IMG/VR virus record: IMGVR_UViG_3300017732_000092 | Location: 1 to 20,308 of that record | Reading direction: 5' to 3' (one strand) | DNA length: 20,308 nt | Source: a virus | In this document: positions 89 through 20,308 of the stretch, one piece after another | Layout of the letters: each line of letters begins with the position of its first letter | Numbering within the stretch: the first letter of the stretch is position 1 | Translations under genes and position numbers: made by a program | The notes under the pieces: generated by a model | Seen by the model: only the letters and a program-made list of their open reading frames with translations | Told to the model about the DNA's origin: nothing | Databases searched by the model: none

Positions 89-1018
89 ATGGGATTTAAA
101 TTATCGAAAAAAGATATTGTAAAAGAGATTGTGAAGTCCGGAAAAGACCCTAAGTACTTCATCAATAACTATTGTCGAATATCTCACCCAATGAAAGGAC
201 TTATACCTTTCCAAACTTATCCATATCAAAACGATCTTATTGATGATTTTAATGATTTTCGTTTTACTGTGATTTTAAAAGCAAGACAGCTTGGAATTTC
301 AACAATTTCGGCTGCTTATTGCGTTTGGCTTATGTTGTTCCATCGCGATAAGAACGTTCTTGTTATCGCAACAAAGTTTGCTACCGCTGCGAATCTCGTA
401 AAGAAGGTTAAAAATATAATGAATTATCTTCCGGAATGGATGCGGGTAGCAAAAATTAAAGTTGACAATAGAACATCCTTTGAGCTTTCAAATGGATCTC
501 AAATCAAAGCTGCTTCTACTTCCGGAGATGCCGGTCGTTCGGAAGCATTGTCTCTTCTGGTGATTGACGAGGCAGCACATATCGACGGACTTGGAGAATT
601 ATGGACAGGTCTTTATCCAACTCTGTCAACGGGTGGTCGCTGTATTGCTCTATCTACCCCTAATGGTGTCGGTAATTGGTTTCACAAAACATACGTTGAC
701 GCAGAAGAAAAGCAAAATGATTTTAAGCCGATTATTCTCCCATGGGACGTGCATCCCGAAAGAGACCAAGCTTGGTTTACTAAAGAAACTAAAAACATGT
801 CTCGAAGACAAATAGCGCAAGAATTAGAGTGTAACTTTAATACGTCCGGTGATACTGTCATACATGCGGACGATATAGCATGGCTAAACGAACAAATAAG
901 AGAACCTCAATATAGAACAGGATATGATAGGAATTTTTGGATATGGGAGAAACACCAAGAAGGAAGCACTTATTTATTGGTAGCGGATGTAGCAAGAGGT
1001 GACGGTGCAGACAATTAA
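89..1018 (+). CDS. gp17: Large terminase subunit, N-terminal ATPase part (frame broken by in-frame stop)
   Basis: Encodes the ATP-driven DNA packaging motor that docks on the portal and fills the prohead. Residues 64-72 (KARQLGIST) form a deviant Walker A motif with the lysine at its start rather than before the Ser/Thr. Residues 156-162 (LLVIDEA) are Walker B with the catalytic Glu161, and ALSTPNG near 187-193 is the coupling motif. The nuclease domain begins near residue 290, and VADVARGDGAD carries its first metal-binding Asp (D300). The frame then meets TAA at 1016-1018, while the rest of the nuclease domain continues in the same frame from 1019. The start is the first ATG after an in-frame stop, with only a weak purine-rich ribosome site. 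The family is certain; whether the gene makes one protein, two, or a dead product is not. Confidence 0.95.
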   Translation: MGFKLSKKDIVKEIVKSGKDPKYFINNYCRISHPMKGLIPFQTYPYQNDLIDDFNDFRFTVILKARQLGISTISAAYCVWLMLFHRDKNVLVIATKFATAANLVKKVKNIMNYLPEWMRVAKIKVDNRTSFELSNGSQIKAASTSGDAGRSEALSLLVIDEAAHIDGLGELWTGLYPTLSTGGRCIALSTPNGVGNWFHKTYVDAEEKQNDFKPIILPWDVHPERDQAWFTKETKNMSRRQIAQELECNFNTSGDTVIHADDIAWLNEQIREPQYRTGYDRNFWIWEKHQEGSTYLLVADVARGDGADN

Positions 1019-1672
1019 GTGTTTCATGTTTTAAAATTAGAAACTATGGAAATTGTAGCAGAATATCAGGGCAAGCCAAATCTTGATATGTATTCTCAAA
1101 TGATATTCTCGGCGGCAACAGAGTATGGAGAGTGCCTCTTAGTTGTTGAAAATAATGGAATTGGCATTTCGGTTTTGGAAAAACTAATTACTCTAGGATA
1201 TCAAAATATCTACTACTCGATCAAAGGAACTCATGAATACATAAGCCAAACTCAAGGCGAACATATGGCAAATACTGTTCCGGGTTTTACAACATCGATC
1301 AAAACAAGACCTTTAGTGGTGGCAAAACTTGAAGAGTTTGTAAGAAATAAAATTTTAAAAATATATTCCTCTAGGACATTTCATGAATTTAGAACCTTTA
1401 TTTGGAATAATGGAAAACCACAAGCAATGAGATCGTATCATGATGACTTAATAATGTCTCTAGCTATTGTATGTTGGGTACGAGATACAGCACTAACTGT
1501 TTCAAAGAGAGATGTAGAATACAAAAAAGCAATGTTGGGTGGTATGTACTTAAAAACAAATCGCCTAAATACTACCATAAAGGGAATGGAAGGTCATAAA
1601 GACGATTTCAAAACTAAATATGAAGAAGAGTTGTCTTTGCCGACAAAGTTCCCATGGATCTTCAAAGGATAA
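1019..1672 (+). CDS. gp17: Large terminase subunit, C-terminal nuclease part (same frame, after the stop)
   Basis: This is the rest of the RNase H-like headful nuclease of gp17. VVENNGIG supplies the second acidic residue (E44 of this part) and YHDDLIMSLAI the third (D142/D143), matching the acidic set known for T4 gp17 (D401, E458, D542). The codon after the stop is GTG, in a position where an intact protein would simply have Val. Both parts together give about 527 codons, close to but shorter than T4 gp17 (610 aa). The nearest SD-like sequence (AGAGGTGA, 994-1001) is about 17 bases from the GTG, too far for efficient initiation, so a natural split gene is not well supported. A point mutation (for example TCA to TAA, since many homologues have Ser here), a sequencing error or readthrough are alternatives. 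Confidence 0.93.
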   Translation: MFHVLKLETMEIVAEYQGKPNLDMYSQMIFSAATEYGECLLVVENNGIGISVLEKLITLGYQNIYYSIKGTHEYISQTQGEHMANTVPGFTTSIKTRPLVVAKLEEFVRNKILKIYSSRTFHEFRTFIWNNGKPQAMRSYHDDLIMSLAIVCWVRDTALTVSKRDVEYKKAMLGGMYLKTNRLNTTIKGMEGHKDDFKTKYEEELSLPTKFPWIFKG

Positions 1673-1678
1673 AAATAA

Positions 1679-3637
1679 GTGGCTAAAAAGAAAAGAAATT
1701 TGGGTAAAAACCCATATAATCCGGAAAATAATTTATTTCGTTCACTAACGAGATTGTTTTCTGGTCCTATAACCAATAGAAGAACACAGACCGGTCGACA
1801 ACTTCGAAGAAGACATTTGGATATATATGCCAATCGTTTCAAGTCAGCATCTGGTAAGCAGTTTAAGAAAGTGGAATACAACCCCATGACTGTTCTCGCT
1901 GCGAATATGATTTCGAATAGAAATCGTAGTGAAAGATATGTTGATTTTGATCAAATGGAATACACACCAGAAATAGCTTCTTCATTAGATATATACGCCG
2001 ATGAAATGACTACTCATTCTTCTCTACAAAACATGTTAAGAATTAGTTGTCCAAACGAGGAGATAAAGTCAATACTAGATAATCTTTACCATAATGTGTT
2101 AAATATTGAACACAACTTGTTTGGGTGGTGTCGTACCATGTGTAAGTACGGAGACTTGTTTTTATACTTGGATATCGAAGAAAAAATGGGTATAAAAGCA
2201 TGCATAGGATTACCAGCACAAGAAGTTGAAAGATTAGAGGGTGAAGATGAATCTAATCCCAATTATGTTCAATATCAATGGAATTCTGCTGGTATGACTT
2301 TGGAAAATTGGCAAATGGCACATTTCAGAATATTAGGAAATGATAAACACGCACCTTATGGAACTTCTGTATTGGAGCCCGCGCGAAGAATTTGGAGACA
2401 GCTTACTCTATTAGAGGATGCAATGATGGCATATCGTATTGTTCGTTCCCCCGAAAGAAGAGTTTTTAAAATAGACGTTGGGAACATTCCTCCACAAGAC
2501 GTTGAACAATACATGCAAAAAGTCATGACTCAAATGAAACGACATCAAGTTGTTGACCCCACAACAGGACGACTAGATTTAAGATATAACCCTTTATCAA
2601 TTGAAGAAGATTATTATATCCCGGTGAGAGGCCAGTCGCAGACTGATATACAAAATCTAGCTGGTGGTCAATTTACTGGTACCGTTGAAGATGTTAAGTA
2701 CCTAAGAGATAAGCTGTTCTCCGCCCTTAAAATACCCCAATCCTATCTTACGATGGGAGAGGGAGCGACAGAAGATAAGACCACTCTTGCCCAAAAAGAT
2801 ATTCGTTTTGCTCGAACAATACAGAGACTACAAAGAGTAGTTATTTCCGAGCTTGAAAAGATTGGTATTATACATTTGTTCACAATGGGTTTTAGAAATG
2901 ATGATCTATTATCATTTAGCTTGAAGCTTAACAACCCTTCAAAGATAGCAGAATTGCAAGAACTGGAACAATGGGACAAAAAATTTAGTGTTGCTGGTAA
3001 TGCAACTGAGGGTTATTTCTCTAGAAGATGGATTGCTGAGAAGCTTTTTGGATTATCGGAAGAAGAATTTTTGCGAATGCAAAGAGAGATGTATCATGAT
3101 AGAAAATTCGCCGCTAGCTTGGAAGCCGCAGGTCAAGCGCCTGAAGCCGGAGCAGGTGGAGGTGGCCTAGGAGATCTTGGCGGTGGAGAAGGTGACCTTG
3201 GTGATTTAGGCGGTGGAGAAGGTGACCTTGGTGATATTGGTGGAGATGCACCTGCTGATGAGCCGGCTGGTGACACAGGTGGAGATGATGAGATACTTCT
3301 TGCTGAGCCACCTGCTAAGCGAGATGATGAAAAGAAAAAAGAAGATAAGCCAAAATACAAAAGAGGTCGATATAAGAGACATAAAACCTCCTACTCCAAG
3401 GGAGGCTTATCAAAGCAATTAAAAAGAACTCACACACCAGAATTTGGTGATACCAATAGGACACTGTTTCCCGGCAAGTCTGGTTTCGGTGGACTTGATT
3501 CTCTAGCTAGAGGAGTTACTGAGGGTACTGACGTGAATAAAATAGAAGAAGAAAAACTATTTAGTACATCTCGGCAAGTAGATCTGTTGATTGAGAGTTT
3601 ATTAAAAACAAAGGTAGCAGAAGATGAAACACAATAA
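1679..3637 (+). CDS. gp20: Portal vertex protein
   Basis: Forms the dodecameric ring at the special head vertex through which DNA enters and leaves, and nucleates prohead assembly. The sequence shows the gp20 family pattern: a basic N-terminus, DIYADEM near residue 105, a wing/crown region, and SYLTMGEGATEDKTTLAQ near residues 355-372 followed by the long helical segment. The GTG start follows AAAGGAT at good spacing. At 652 aa it is well over the 524 aa of T4 gp20. The excess is a C-terminal tail from about residue 485: an Ala/Gly/Asp stretch with repeated GGGEGDLGD units, an acidic stretch, then a Lys/Arg-rich segment around 555-580. ILLAEPPA near 540 contains an LxE, the recognition pattern of the T4 protease, so tail removal during maturation is possible but unproven. 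The end overlaps the next gene by 14 nt. Confidence 0.96.
   Translation: MAKKKRNLGKNPYNPENNLFRSLTRLFSGPITNRRTQTGRQLRRRHLDIYANRFKSASGKQFKKVEYNPMTVLAANMISNRNRSERYVDFDQMEYTPEIASSLDIYADEMTTHSSLQNMLRISCPNEEIKSILDNLYHNVLNIEHNLFGWCRTMCKYGDLFLYLDIEEKMGIKACIGLPAQEVERLEGEDESNPNYVQYQWNSAGMTLENWQMAHFRILGNDKHAPYGTSVLEPARRIWRQLTLLEDAMMAYRIVRSPERRVFKIDVGNIPPQDVEQYMQKVMTQMKRHQVVDPTTGRLDLRYNPLSIEEDYYIPVRGQSQTDIQNLAGGQFTGTVEDVKYLRDKLFSALKIPQSYLTMGEGATEDKTTLAQKDIRFARTIQRLQRVVISELEKIGIIHLFTMGFRNDDLLSFSLKLNNPSKIAELQELEQWDKKFSVAGNATEGYFSRRWIAEKLFGLSEEEFLRMQREMYHDRKFAASLEAAGQAPEAGAGGGGLGDLGGGEGDLGDLGGGEGDLGDIGGDAPADEPAGDTGGDDEILLAEPPAKRDDEKKKEDKPKYKRGRYKRHKTSYSKGGLSKQLKRTHTPEFGDTNRTLFPGKSGFGGLDSLARGVTEGTDVNKIEEEKLFSTSRQVDLLIESLLKTKVAEDETQ
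3179..3238 (+). repeat. Two-copy 30-bp tandem repeat in the portal tail
   Basis: GGCGGTGGAGAAGGTGACCT begins at 3179 and again at 3209, giving two near-identical 30-bp units that encode GGGEGDLGD plus Leu or Ile. A degenerate further copy lies just upstream (GGLGDL). The near-identity at DNA level suggests recent slippage expansion inside the low-complexity Gly/Asp tail. Confidence 0.85.
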
Positions 3638-5411: not shown

Positions 5412-6020
5412 ATGAAAAAATTATTAACAGAGTTTCATGAACTTTGTAAAGATGGAATTTGCTTGGATCTCTTAACTGAAAGAGAAAAGAAAGAAGTTGC
5501 AAACGGCATGCTTTATTTATCTGGTAGAATTCAGACAGCAGATAAAAAGAATGGCAATGGTCGATCTTATCCTTTTAAAGTACTTAAGAGAGAGATTGAG
5601 AACTATAGCAATATTATAAAAGACAATCGCGCTTTGGGAGAACTTGATCACCCAGACGATTCTGTTATCAATCTTAGAAACGTATCTCACATTATCACAG
5701 ATGTTTGGTGGGAAGGTAAAGATGTTATGGGCAAGATTAAAGTTCTTGATACACCGTCTGGTCGTATTCTTAAAGATTTGATCAATGCTGGTGTTAAGCT
5801 TGGTATTTCTTCTCGTGGTCTTGGATCTGTCAAAGAGAGCATGGGCAGCACCGTTGTTCAAGAAGATTTTGAGTTAATTTGCTTTGATATCGTATCAGAA
5901 CCATCAACACCAAATGCTTATGTTTACCCAGATAAAAAGAAAGATATGTATGAAAATAAGATAAACGAAGCAAAAAGAAATATTGTTGATGATTTATTTA
6001 AGAAGATTTTGGAAGACTAA
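5412..6020 (+). CDS. gp21: Prohead core protein and protease
   Basis: Serine protease of the T4 gp21 family that resides in the prohead core and cleaves scaffold and capsid proteins during maturation. The catalytic His is H80 in GELDHPD. The catalytic Ser is in GISSRG (S133/S134). FDIVSEPS (D159) follows and may complete the triad. At 202 aa it is close to T4 gp21 (212 aa). The ATG is preceded by GGAG 6-7 bases upstream. Its last base overlaps the next start (TAATG). In T4 gene 21 is followed directly by 22 and 23; here those partners lie nearly 12 kb downstream. Confidence 0.95.
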   Translation: MKKLLTEFHELCKDGICLDLLTEREKKEVANGMLYLSGRIQTADKKNGNGRSYPFKVLKREIENYSNIIKDNRALGELDHPDDSVINLRNVSHIITDVWWEGKDVMGKIKVLDTPSGRILKDLINAGVKLGISSRGLGSVKESMGSTVVQEDFELICFDIVSEPSTPNAYVYPDKKKDMYENKINEAKRNIVDDLFKKILED

Positions 6021-6427
6021 TGAAAAAAGATGATTTAAAAAAAGTGTTAAAGCCGCTAATTAAAGAGTGTATAAAAGAAGTAATATTTGAAGAAGGAGCC
6101 TTGTCAACCATAATATCCGAGGTTATGAAGGGTACTTCTCAAACTCAACAAATTGTTGAAGTTAAACGTGAAGAAAAAAATAAAAGATCCAATCAAAAAA
6201 ATATGGAAAAATTAAAACAACGCAAAAGAAAGATTTTAGATTCAATAGGCAAAGACGCATATAATGGCGTTAACCTCTTTGAAGGAACAACACCAGCACC
6301 TGCTGCATCATCAGCGCAAGGGCAAGGTCCACTTAGTGGCATGGCCGCAGAGGACGCAGGAGTTGATATATCTGGTATCTTTTCTGATAATTCTTCAGCA
6401 ATTTGGAAAAAACTTTCAAGGAAATAG
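6020..6427 (+). CDS. Unassigned 135-aa protein, possible head-core component
   Basis: Starts in a TAATG overlap with the protease gene, so it is probably translationally coupled. Residues 1-40 are helical and charged (LIKECIKEVIFEEG), 45-80 are very basic, and the C-terminal half is low-complexity Ala/Pro/Gly/Ser followed by a short structured end. LFEGTTPAPA contains an LxE followed by Gly, which matches the gp21-type cleavage pattern, so it could be a protease substrate packaged in the core. Family not recognised; role inferred from position and composition. Confidence 0.8.
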   Translation: MKKDDLKKVLKPLIKECIKEVIFEEGALSTIISEVMKGTSQTQQIVEVKREEKNKRSNQKNMEKLKQRKRKILDSIGKDAYNGVNLFEGTTPAPAASSAQGQGPLSGMAAEDAGVDISGIFSDNSSAIWKKLSRK

Positions 6428-6428
6428 A

Positions 6429-6641
6429 ATGGCCAACAACTTAACAATCAAACCTCGAAAAAACGAGAACCAAGATCGATTAATTAAGAGATTTATCAAA
6501 AAAGCAAAGAAGCTTGGAATCTTAGAGGAGGTTAAAGATAGAAGACATTATACAAAACCCTCCGATAAAAGACGCAGAGCAAAACAGAAAGCCATTGCTC
6601 GGAGAAAGAAAGAAGAAGCAAAAAGAAATAAGAACAACTAA
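6429..6641 (+). CDS. rpsU: Phage-encoded ribosomal protein bS21
   Basis: A 70-aa, strongly basic protein matching bS21 of the small ribosomal subunit. The core RLIKRFIKKAKKLGILEEV, then RRHYTKPSDKRRRAKQKA, lines up with E. coli bS21, where the equivalents are ALRRFKRSCEKAGVLAEV and RREFYEKPTTERKRAKASA. The length equals that of cellular bS21. The ATG at 6429 was chosen over upstream in-frame starts because AAGGA lies 6-7 bases ahead, inside the previous gene, and the bS21 match begins right after it. bS21 sits near the anti-Shine-Dalgarno end of 16S rRNA and takes part in initiation. Phage copies are known from cultured and uncultured viruses. Here it is one base after the preceding stop, in a late cluster, so it would be made with structural proteins; a role in favouring late phage translation is inference. 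Confidence 0.92.
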   Translation: MANNLTIKPRKNENQDRLIKRFIKKAKKLGILEEVKDRRHYTKPSDKRRRAKQKAIARRKKEEAKRNKNN

Positions 6642-17814: not shown

Positions 17815-19074
17815 ATGTCTTCAATGTTAGAACAAGCTATCGTGGACGCTAAAGCTCTACGAGAAGCAGCACTTAAAAATGCAGAACAAGCAATAATTGA
17901 AAAATATGCACCAGAGATTAAAAAAGCAGTTGATTCTCTACTGGAGGAGTCAGACAAAGACACCATTATAGAGAACCAAGAAGGTGAGAAAGAAGTGATT
18001 AAAGAAGAACAAGAAGCTTCTCCAGATACCGGCTTTTCCGCTCCTCATGCTTTCAATCCTTTGGATACTGGTGAATCGGTTCAATACAATGCGAAGTTTG
18101 AAGAACCAGTCTATGAATTCAATCTTATGGACTTTGAACCCAAAGAAGAAACCACAGAGGAGCCAGCGATGGATCTTGGTGGACTAGGTGGATTAGAAAC
18201 TCCAGAGACCCCAGAAGAACCCAAAGCTGGTGGAGGAGATGAATTGGATCTTGGAGATCTCGATGCATTGCAAGAATCCAAAAGCAAAGATTACAAACAG
18301 GGTTACAGCGATGCTATAGCAGGTCATGAAATGGCTGATGATGCGCCTCGTGATGGTGGTTACGATGATGGCTACAAAGCAGGTGAAGCCGAGAGATTAG
18401 AGCAAGATTCTAAAGCAGGACGCGAAATTAAAAATCTTAAGAAAGAAAACAACAGTGAAGAAGATGGCATCATGGAACAAATCATGGAACTTCTTGGCGA
18501 GATGGATGATGATCTTCTCGAAGAAGAACTTATTGTTGATACATCCATGCAAAAGAATGGAACGTTCGAGACAAATGAAGCAACTCTTCAATATATGCAA
18601 GAGCTTGAGTTGGCTAAAAGAGAGTCAACAAAGTATAAAGAAGAGAACGAAGCTCTTGAAGAAAAACTAAAAGAATTAAAAGAAAGCTTTAAAAAGCTTA
18701 CATTAAAGAACAAACAGTACAAAAGCGTTGTTGAGAAGATCAATGAGAAACTTAACGAAACACTTTTGTCAAACGCTAAGTTGCTTTATAGCAACAAAAC
18801 ATTGTGCGATGCCTCCTTGAATGAGCGACAAAAATCAAAAATTGTCGAAGCCATCGCAAAGGCTAAAACTCCCGAAGAAGCGAAATCTCTTTGCGAAGCT
18901 CTGAATGCTACAGTGACATCTGGGAACAAGAAACATAATCCTAGAACTCTTAGCGAGTCCGTGCAAAGAAAATCAAATCTATCTGGAATTTTGCCACGTA
19001 GAAATAAGCAAGTTAATGAATCTACCGAGCATCTTTTTGCCGAGAAGATGAAAAAACTTGCTGGCATTAAATAA
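17815..19074 (+). CDS. gp22: Prohead scaffold (core) protein
   Basis: Immediately upstream of the capsid gene, as gene 22 is in T4, and with the expected acidic, coiled-coil composition. Residues 1-50 are helical (LEQAIVDAKALREAALKNAE), with the Glu/Lys-rich pattern of core proteins. The middle (about 120-160) is low-complexity Gly/Leu/Asp/Glu, and residues 160-190 have two GY-x-D-x-x-x-AG motifs. A long coiled coil occupies about 265-325, and the C-terminal part (LLYSNKTLCDASLNERQKSKIVEAIAKA, split here by role) resembles scaffold ends of marine T4-like phages. At 419 aa it is much longer than T4 gp22 (269 aa). AGGAG precedes the ATG by 9 bases. Expected to fill the prohead and be degraded by the gp21-type protease. 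Confidence 0.87.
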   Translation: MSSMLEQAIVDAKALREAALKNAEQAIIEKYAPEIKKAVDSLLEESDKDTIIENQEGEKEVIKEEQEASPDTGFSAPHAFNPLDTGESVQYNAKFEEPVYEFNLMDFEPKEETTEEPAMDLGGLGGLETPETPEEPKAGGGDELDLGDLDALQESKSKDYKQGYSDAIAGHEMADDAPRDGGYDDGYKAGEAERLEQDSKAGREIKNLKKENNSEEDGIMEQIMELLGEMDDDLLEEELIVDTSMQKNGTFETNEATLQYMQELELAKRESTKYKEENEALEEKLKELKESFKKLTLKNKQYKSVVEKINEKLNETLLSNAKLLYSNKTLCDASLNERQKSKIVEAIAKAKTPEEAKSLCEALNATVTSGNKKHNPRTLSESVQRKSNLSGILPRRNKQVNESTEHLFAEKMKKLAGIK

Positions 19075-19087
19075 CAATAATTTAAGG

Positions 19088-19101
19088 AGGTTAAAATAAT
19101 G
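19088..19101 (+). promoter_or_regulatory. Strong ribosome-binding site and start of the capsid gene
   Basis: TTTAAGGAGGTTAAAATAATG places a full AAGGAGG (19084-19090) eight bases before the ATG at 19099, the best SD match in the window, as expected for the most abundant virion protein. Confidence 0.85.
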
Positions 19102-20308
19102 TCTATAATTGAAACTTTAACCGAAGGTATCGTAAACCGTGACATGAAGAAAGAAGGCGCTGCTCTTCTTGATAAGTGGACAAGAACCGGTTTGCTTGAG
19201 GGCCTTCAAACCGAGCATCAGAAGTCAACCATGGCTCGTCTGCTCGAAAATCAAGCAAGAGAACTTCTTCGTGAATCTAGCTCTATGGCTGTGGGTGACG
19301 TTGAAGGTTTCGCTGCTGTTGCTTTCCCAATCGTTCGTCGTGTATTCGCCGGACTTATCGCTAACGATCTTGTAAGCGTTCAACCAATGAGCCTTCCTTC
19401 CGGACTCATCTTCTTCCTTGATTTTGCGTATTCTCCGAATGTTGCCGGACAATCCGATATTACTTCTCGTCTTGGAAATGCTGTAAATAAATCGATCTAT
19501 GGTACAGATCAACTTGCTTCTGAGGTAATCAATGGTGTTGACCTTGTCGATGCCTCTACCAAAGCCGGTTTTGGTGGCCCGGGACGTGATGGTCAAACTG
19601 GGTACGCATTCGCTTCACCAACTGGGTCTCTTGCAGCAGTTGCCGCCGGCGTCCGAGCAAAATGTGCTATTTTTGATCTAGATGGCGCTGTGACTGAGGC
19701 AAATGCAAAGTTGATCCAGTATGACCCAGATCTATTGTCTATTACAGATTCTTCACAGAAAGTTGCTGTTATTGATGTTGATGTTAAGCTCTTAACCAGT
19801 ACCGAGGGCGACCCAGACTTCAACAACTTGTCTGCTTTCGTTTTTGATAGTGCTAATATTGTAAACGCTGTTACTAACATTTCAACTACCGCTACTCAAA
19901 TCCGTCGTTTGAGTGCGCGAGTTAAAGAAGCAGATGCAATTGCTGCGCCTACAACCAACTCTGATTGTATCAGATTTGTTTTTGCAGTTGCGTCGGCGTC
20001 AACTGCACAGTCAGCTAATAATATAGATGCTAATTTAGGAGCAGCAGGTACGCAATCTTGTCCGCTTGCAGACAGTATTTCAACAGGTGGATCTCTTGGG
20101 TCTGTTGGTTCATCAAGCAACTTGTTTCCACTTGAAGGTAACGAATCAATTCCTGAAATCGATATCAAGGTTGATTCAACTGCGATCGTTGCTCAAACTA
20201 AGAAGCTTAAAGCTAAGTGGACTCCTGAGCTTGGTCAAGACTTGAATGCTTACCACAACTTGGATGCTGAAGTAGAACTTACTTCTATTCTTTCTGAGCA
20301 AATTGCTT
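19099..20308 (+). CDS. gp23: Major capsid protein (3' end beyond the window)
   Basis: The frame is open from the ATG to the window edge (403 codons). Family marks: GLLEGLQTEHQ near residues 31-41, then FPIVRRVFAGLIANDLVSVQPM near 75-96, followed by SLPSGLIFFLDF; the equivalent T4 gp23 stretch contains IAFDICGVQPM and GQVFALR. The N-terminal roughly 59 residues are helical and charged and end in LRE before SSSM; L-x-E is the gp21 recognition pattern, so cleavage after E59 is likely, as T4 gp23 is cleaved after E65. From residue 69 on, the HK97-type capsid core follows, including a Gly-rich segment (GFGGPGRDGQ). The gene is rich in preferred codons such as CTT, GCT and CGT. The C-terminus is missing. 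Confidence 0.95.
   Translation, partial: MSIIETLTEGIVNRDMKKEGAALLDKWTRTGLLEGLQTEHQKSTMARLLENQARELLRESSSMAVGDVEGFAAVAFPIVRRVFAGLIANDLVSVQPMSLPSGLIFFLDFAYSPNVAGQSDITSRLGNAVNKSIYGTDQLASEVINGVDLVDASTKAGFGGPGRDGQTGYAFASPTGSLAAVAAGVRAKCAIFDLDGAVTEANAKLIQYDPDLLSITDSSQKVAVIDVDVKLLTSTEGDPDFNNLSAFVFDSANIVNAVTNISTTATQIRRLSARVKEADAIAAPTTNSDCIRFVFAVASASTAQSANNIDANLGAAGTQSCPLADSISTGGSLGSVGSSSNLFPLEGNESIPEIDIKVDSTAIVAQTKKLKAKWTPELGQDLNAYHNLDAEVELTSILSEQIA

Follow-up and report, generated by a model that had tools for sequence, protein, structure and literature searches.

Among the ribosomal proteins encoded by phages, bS21 is the dominant one, and it is under purifying selection (Mizuno et al. 2019, PMC6375957); aquatic phages commonly carry it. 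That survey also describes repeated transfer of bS21 between cells and phages, the entry of the bS21 of phage HTVC008M into E. coli 70S ribosomes, and the production by such ribosomes of about 5% of the normal amount of GFP in an E. coli in-vitro system (PMC6375957). For bS21 genes located in head clusters, late expression has been described and a hijacking of the ribosome suggested; of 900 published phages, 310 have a prohead protease close to bS21, as a rule two to four genes away (Chen et al. 2022, PMC9723584).

The bS21 gene analysed here belongs to an uncultivated virus of bacteria, a 20,308-base IMG/VR virus record, the whole of which is referred to as the window. The window displays a T4-like order of head genes: terminase, gp20 portal, gp21-type protease, a 135-aa gene, bS21, several large unassigned ORFs, a gene in the gp22 position, and gp23. 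The features are as follows.

89 to 1672, plus strand: terminase large subunit (first part matches PF03237 and PHROG terminase families)
1679 to 3637, plus strand: gp20-type portal protein (PF07230, E 6.5e-79)
5412 to 6020, plus strand: gp21-type prohead protease, Peptidase_S77 (PF03420, E 6e-34; phrog_207, E 3e-63)
6020 to 6427, plus strand: 135-aa protein with no family assigned, the invariant neighbour of bS21
6413 to 6428, plus strand: translation start region of bS21, with AAGGA in the last codons of the 135-aa gene, TAG at 6425-6427 and one spacer base before the ATG
6429 to 6641, plus strand: bS21 (ribosomal protein S21), 70 aa, ATG start (PF01165, TIGR00030, PHROG 21469, PDB bS21 chains, three-helix model)
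17815 to 19074, plus strand: gene occupying the gp22 (scaffold) slot ahead of the capsid gene, named by position only
19099 to 20307, plus strand: gp23-type major capsid protein, cut by the contig end (PF07068, E 1.7e-29)

The flanking terminase, gp20, gp21-type protease and gp23 genes bear out the placement of bS21 inside a head-assembly cluster, which had been proposed from the sequence alone. The terminase frame is broken by a single in-frame TAA at 1016-1018 (DGADN*VFHVL), which separates the ATPase part from the remainder; it could reflect a sequence error, a mutation or a two-part gene.

The freshwater Bacteroidetes phages of Chen et al. resemble the window in that bS21 lies amid terminase, portal, prohead protease and capsid genes, with a late role proposed. 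In those phages, however, bS21 and the head genes lie on opposite strands, whereas the window and 66 of 66 relatives have them on one strand; in the window bS21 abuts the previous gene. In Microcystis phage Mel-JY01 (PP395634) and its IMG/VR relatives (L255-L267), RpsU is, as in the window, on the same strand and the second gene after the prohead protease. The Mel-JY01 portal is T4-like and 44% identical to that of the window, but its RpsU is only 32% identical to the window bS21, and the gene between protease and RpsU has no detectable homology to the 135-aa gene. A common origin of the Microcystis-phage and window-clade bS21 was neither shown nor rejected (AU p 0.39). In one Microcystis-phage-like contig, a volactin/MreB-like actin homologue (L268:8322-9353; PF25216, E 9.5e-71) separates the prohead protease from a displaced bS21. 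The Pelagibacter myophages HTVC008M and Mosig EXVC030M likewise carry a phage bS21, 34% identical to the window protein; the neighbours of the Mosig gene are non-structural, AAA and clamp genes among them, unlike the head-cluster gene of the window. A phage bS21 in a head cluster is thus already published, and the coupling to a single gene throughout the lineage, the absence of an aromatic residue and the Shine-Dalgarno (SD) result presented below are modest additions, not found stated in the accessible portion of the phage-bS21 literature.

The assignment of the 70-aa product as a full-length bS21 is upheld by three independent profile libraries and by solved bS21 chains. The protein scores above the cut-offs of both Pfam (PF01165, 49.5 bits against 27, E 3.5e-13, profile positions 1-54 of 55) and NCBIfam (TIGR00030, 36.0 bits against 28.95, profile positions 2-57 of 58), a comparison that the sequence-only reading had named as one that could refute it, and it matches PHROG 21469, 'ribosomal protein S21', with E 9e-13. 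The PDB matches listed by phmmer are bS21 chains, the best from E. coli (E 4.9e-9). An AlphaFold model consists of three helices (mean pLDDT 84); Foldseek gave just three matches, each of them to a ribosome structure and each with E no lower than 0.1, the protein being too small for a firm match. Judged by these homologies, positions 6429-6641 encode a genuine phage bS21.

The gene upstream had been taken for a probable core-protein gene, a label that the analysis does not bear out: family searches with the 135-aa protein gave no convincing match, and its model is of low confidence (pLDDT 64). The protein contains a motif, [I/L/M]xE(E/D)G at residues 22-26, which is conserved according to motif counts in the relatives. 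The gp22 scaffold slot more likely corresponds to 17815-19074, directly before gp23, than to the 135-aa gene, although the product of 17815-19074 has no convincing family match in Pfam or PHROG either. As described earlier for the junction itself, bS21 begins one base after the preceding gene, whose TAG ends at 6427 and whose last codons hold the AAGGA ribosome site.

We collected relatives by searching with the window bS21 protein, which returned 10 viral loci, and with the window protease, which returned 80. Among the relatives L012-L091, those that contain the whole 135-aa gene plus 250 nt or more of downstream sequence have a readable junction, and in 66 of 66 of them bS21 comes after the 135-aa gene on the same strand. 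The bS21 start falls between -11 and +12 nt of the stop of the 135-aa gene in 81 of the 83 copies with a settable start (a set that includes the window and counts a few contigs twice), a one-base overlap (-1) being the commonest spacing (30 copies), and usually an AGG/GGA-type site precedes the start closely, inside the upstream gene. This anatomy suggests that the two genes are apparently translationally coupled. The two exceptions are L089, with a 1.0-kb insert of two tandem, closely similar genes of 155 and 164 aa (L089:9616-10587), and L092, a doubtful fusion in which the 135-aa gene and bS21 form a single ORF (L092:2208-2942). L145 (L145:5001-5733), 99% identical to L092, is two A shorter in an A run and keeps the two genes separate, so the fusion was rejected as a finding. 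The frame between the two genes varies among relatives, so that a programmed fusion is unlikely, and a programmed frameshift or read-through across the junction was also rejected.

Four relatives of 184-191 kb have a single bS21 copy each. The phage genome of one 191-kb relative (IMGVR_UViG_3300025096_000004) carries, besides bS21, a complete tmRNA gene (L156:10801-11135; Rfam RF00023, 114 bits; tag ANNNYYFEQALAA). The contig of L092, LBWB01000054.1, has been placed in a Woesebacteria genome bin, probably wrongly, since it is of phage origin and carries this head cluster. Variable genes with no clear family lie between the protease and the 135-aa gene in several relatives (L010:5680-7574, L048:7252-8440, L074, L079, L086 and L015). 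They have short leaders ending in [LIV]xE, such as MSYSSDKKHKL.FE.WR.F and MKITKEQL..IIKEEL, and are candidates for packaged or injected proteins.

In a phylogeny set against cellular and viral bS21, as the sequence-only reading had recommended, the viral copies group with the L145 copy in a single starred clade (99/92), separate from 105 cellular sequences and from the Pelagibacter and Microcystis phage bS21; the tree is built on 70 columns, has little resolution beyond this main clade and samples the proteobacteria by one E. coli sequence. None of the cellular sequences compared exceeds 48% identity to the window bS21, and assignment of a host from bS21 was abandoned at this best identity. 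The bS21 distances track those of the protease (Mantel r 0.79) and of the 135-aa gene (r 0.77; p 0.001), so that for the most part bS21 has been passed on together with the head module. bS21 is under strong purifying selection: its pooled dN/dS is about 0.09 (9 pairs), between those of the protease (0.06) and the 135-aa gene (0.13), and the window and L002 copies differ by a dN of 0.05 and a dS of 1.09.

The window keeps the core residues R21, K25, G30, E34, K43-P44-S45 and R49, which are retained by 79-100% of the clade. Parts of the first helix are altered, with the cell-conserved A18, L19 and K23 nearly or wholly missing, and K27 and K28 are invariant in the clade. The net charge of the shared core is +15.9 in the clade against +11.5 in cells, about four more positive charges. 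An aromatic residue that stacks on the anti-Shine-Dalgarno (ASD) sequence, Tyr54 of F. johnsoniae, has been described for Bacteroidia bS21 (PMC9976891). The phages of Chen et al. have an aromatic at this position in 61 of 61 cases, in contrast to 0 of 72 distinct viral sequences of the window clade; the window has Ala57.

Gene starts were set at the first ATG of every ORF of 100 aa or longer, and SD sites of at least 4 nt were counted before them. The earlier remark that many genes carry strong sites is correct, as they precede 67% of window genes (n 15) against 19% of internal ATGs, and 80% of the genes of close relatives against 18%. The lineage differs in this respect from a Flavobacterium phage, in which 5% of genes have them. 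The abundance of these sites makes it very likely that the host uses SD sequences and is not a typical member of Bacteroidia. A Bacteroidia host with an ASD-freeing bS21, suggested by the missing Tyr54 aromatic, was considered and rejected; SD sites also precede early genes, so that an ordinary SD-using host is simpler.

Genes were classed as late (26) or early (15) where they resembled proteins of T4 or of Microcystis, Flavobacterium and Pelagibacter phages. SD energy does not differ between the classes (late -7.22 against early -6.38 kcal/mol, p 0.44), in a sample small enough for a modest difference to escape. T4, which has no annotated bS21 within the 150 kb read, likewise shows no difference (p 0.55). 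SD richness is therefore ordinary and lends no support to a late switch driven by bS21, and SD strength was discarded as a sign of such a switch. Of the earlier interpretation, the part in which bS21 is made with the head genes and functionally selected is supported by the invariant synteny, the apparent coupling and the dN/dS of about 0.09, whereas its appeal to SD richness fails. The window shows no excess of the T4 late promoter TATAAATA when one mismatch is allowed (38 occurrences against 36.7 expected).

The fixed place of bS21 among head genes in every checkable relative indicates that the virus evidently needs it while new particles are made. As a joint reading, we consider it probable that bS21 entered this T4-like lineage long ago and has since been inherited with the head module, and that it is made late and exchanges onto host ribosomes. 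bS21 would be read from the same gene run as the gp21-type protease and the 135-aa gene; ribosomes finishing the 135-aa gene might restart at the overlapping bS21 site, as the anatomy of the junction suggests. The protein would probably be made in step with the head proteins, late in infection, and might compete with or top up any exchangeable bS21 of the host on 30S subunits, so that initiation on phage mRNA could be kept or tuned during bulk virion synthesis. Exchange onto ribosomes is plausible because the conserved core is kept and one phage homologue does so in E. coli (PMC6375957). Several observations count against this explanation: SD strength has no bias toward late genes, synteny alone fits a head-assembly role too, and the published phage bS21 nearly halted E. 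coli translation, which could mean inhibition, not help.

Such inhibition would arise if phage bS21 replaced host bS21 and made many mRNAs initiate less, so that host translation was shut off late. HTVC008M bS21 cut E. coli in-vitro translation to about 5% (PMC6375957), and the changed part of the clade's protein, the first helix, lies close to the site of mRNA binding. The assay, however, used a mismatched host and reporter, and late phage genes still need translation and have ordinary SD sites; we regard a shut-off as unlikely.

An equally improbable alternative is that bS21 has moved into head biology as a small basic protein built into the prohead or packaged, where it would aid nucleic acid packaging or be injected to act on ribosomes from the very first minute. 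The idea of an injected bS21 was raised by Chen et al. 2022 (PMC9723584). A head role would agree with the invariant place of bS21 between the prohead protease and the capsid gene and with the raised charge of the shared core (+15.9 against +11.5). The genes inserted just upstream in relatives have short N-terminal leaders ending in [LIV]xE, and the internal proteins of T4 have capsid-targeting leaders resembling these. Yet [LIV]xE occurs within the first 28 residues of only 3 of 72 bS21s, so they have no such leader; the single ORF of L092, which would favour a head protein, is contradicted by the 99% identical L145; the frame between the 135-aa gene and bS21 is not conserved; and the conserved ribosomal-protein residues are retained. 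Very unlikely, in our estimate, is the stronger form in which bS21 would be an obligatory head-module protein of this large T4-like lineage, highly basic, made in lockstep with its neighbour and acting in the virion or in prohead assembly, beside or instead of the ribosome. A neutral passenger acquired from a host, with no selected role, is extremely improbable: bS21 is small and has repeatedly moved between cells and phages (PMC6375957), but its retention in 66 of 66 relatives, its dN/dS of about 0.09 and its old single clade stand against this.

The negative result on SD strength takes away an argument that is easily offered for late-made bS21 acting on host ribosomes. The lineage makes a clean test case for that action: bS21 is never missing where its presence can be checked, occupies one fixed spot and has no ASD-blocking residue of the Bacteroidia kind. 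If the phage bS21 does shift the choice of mRNA, it would offer a clear instance of a virus that edits the ribosome through the exchange of one part.
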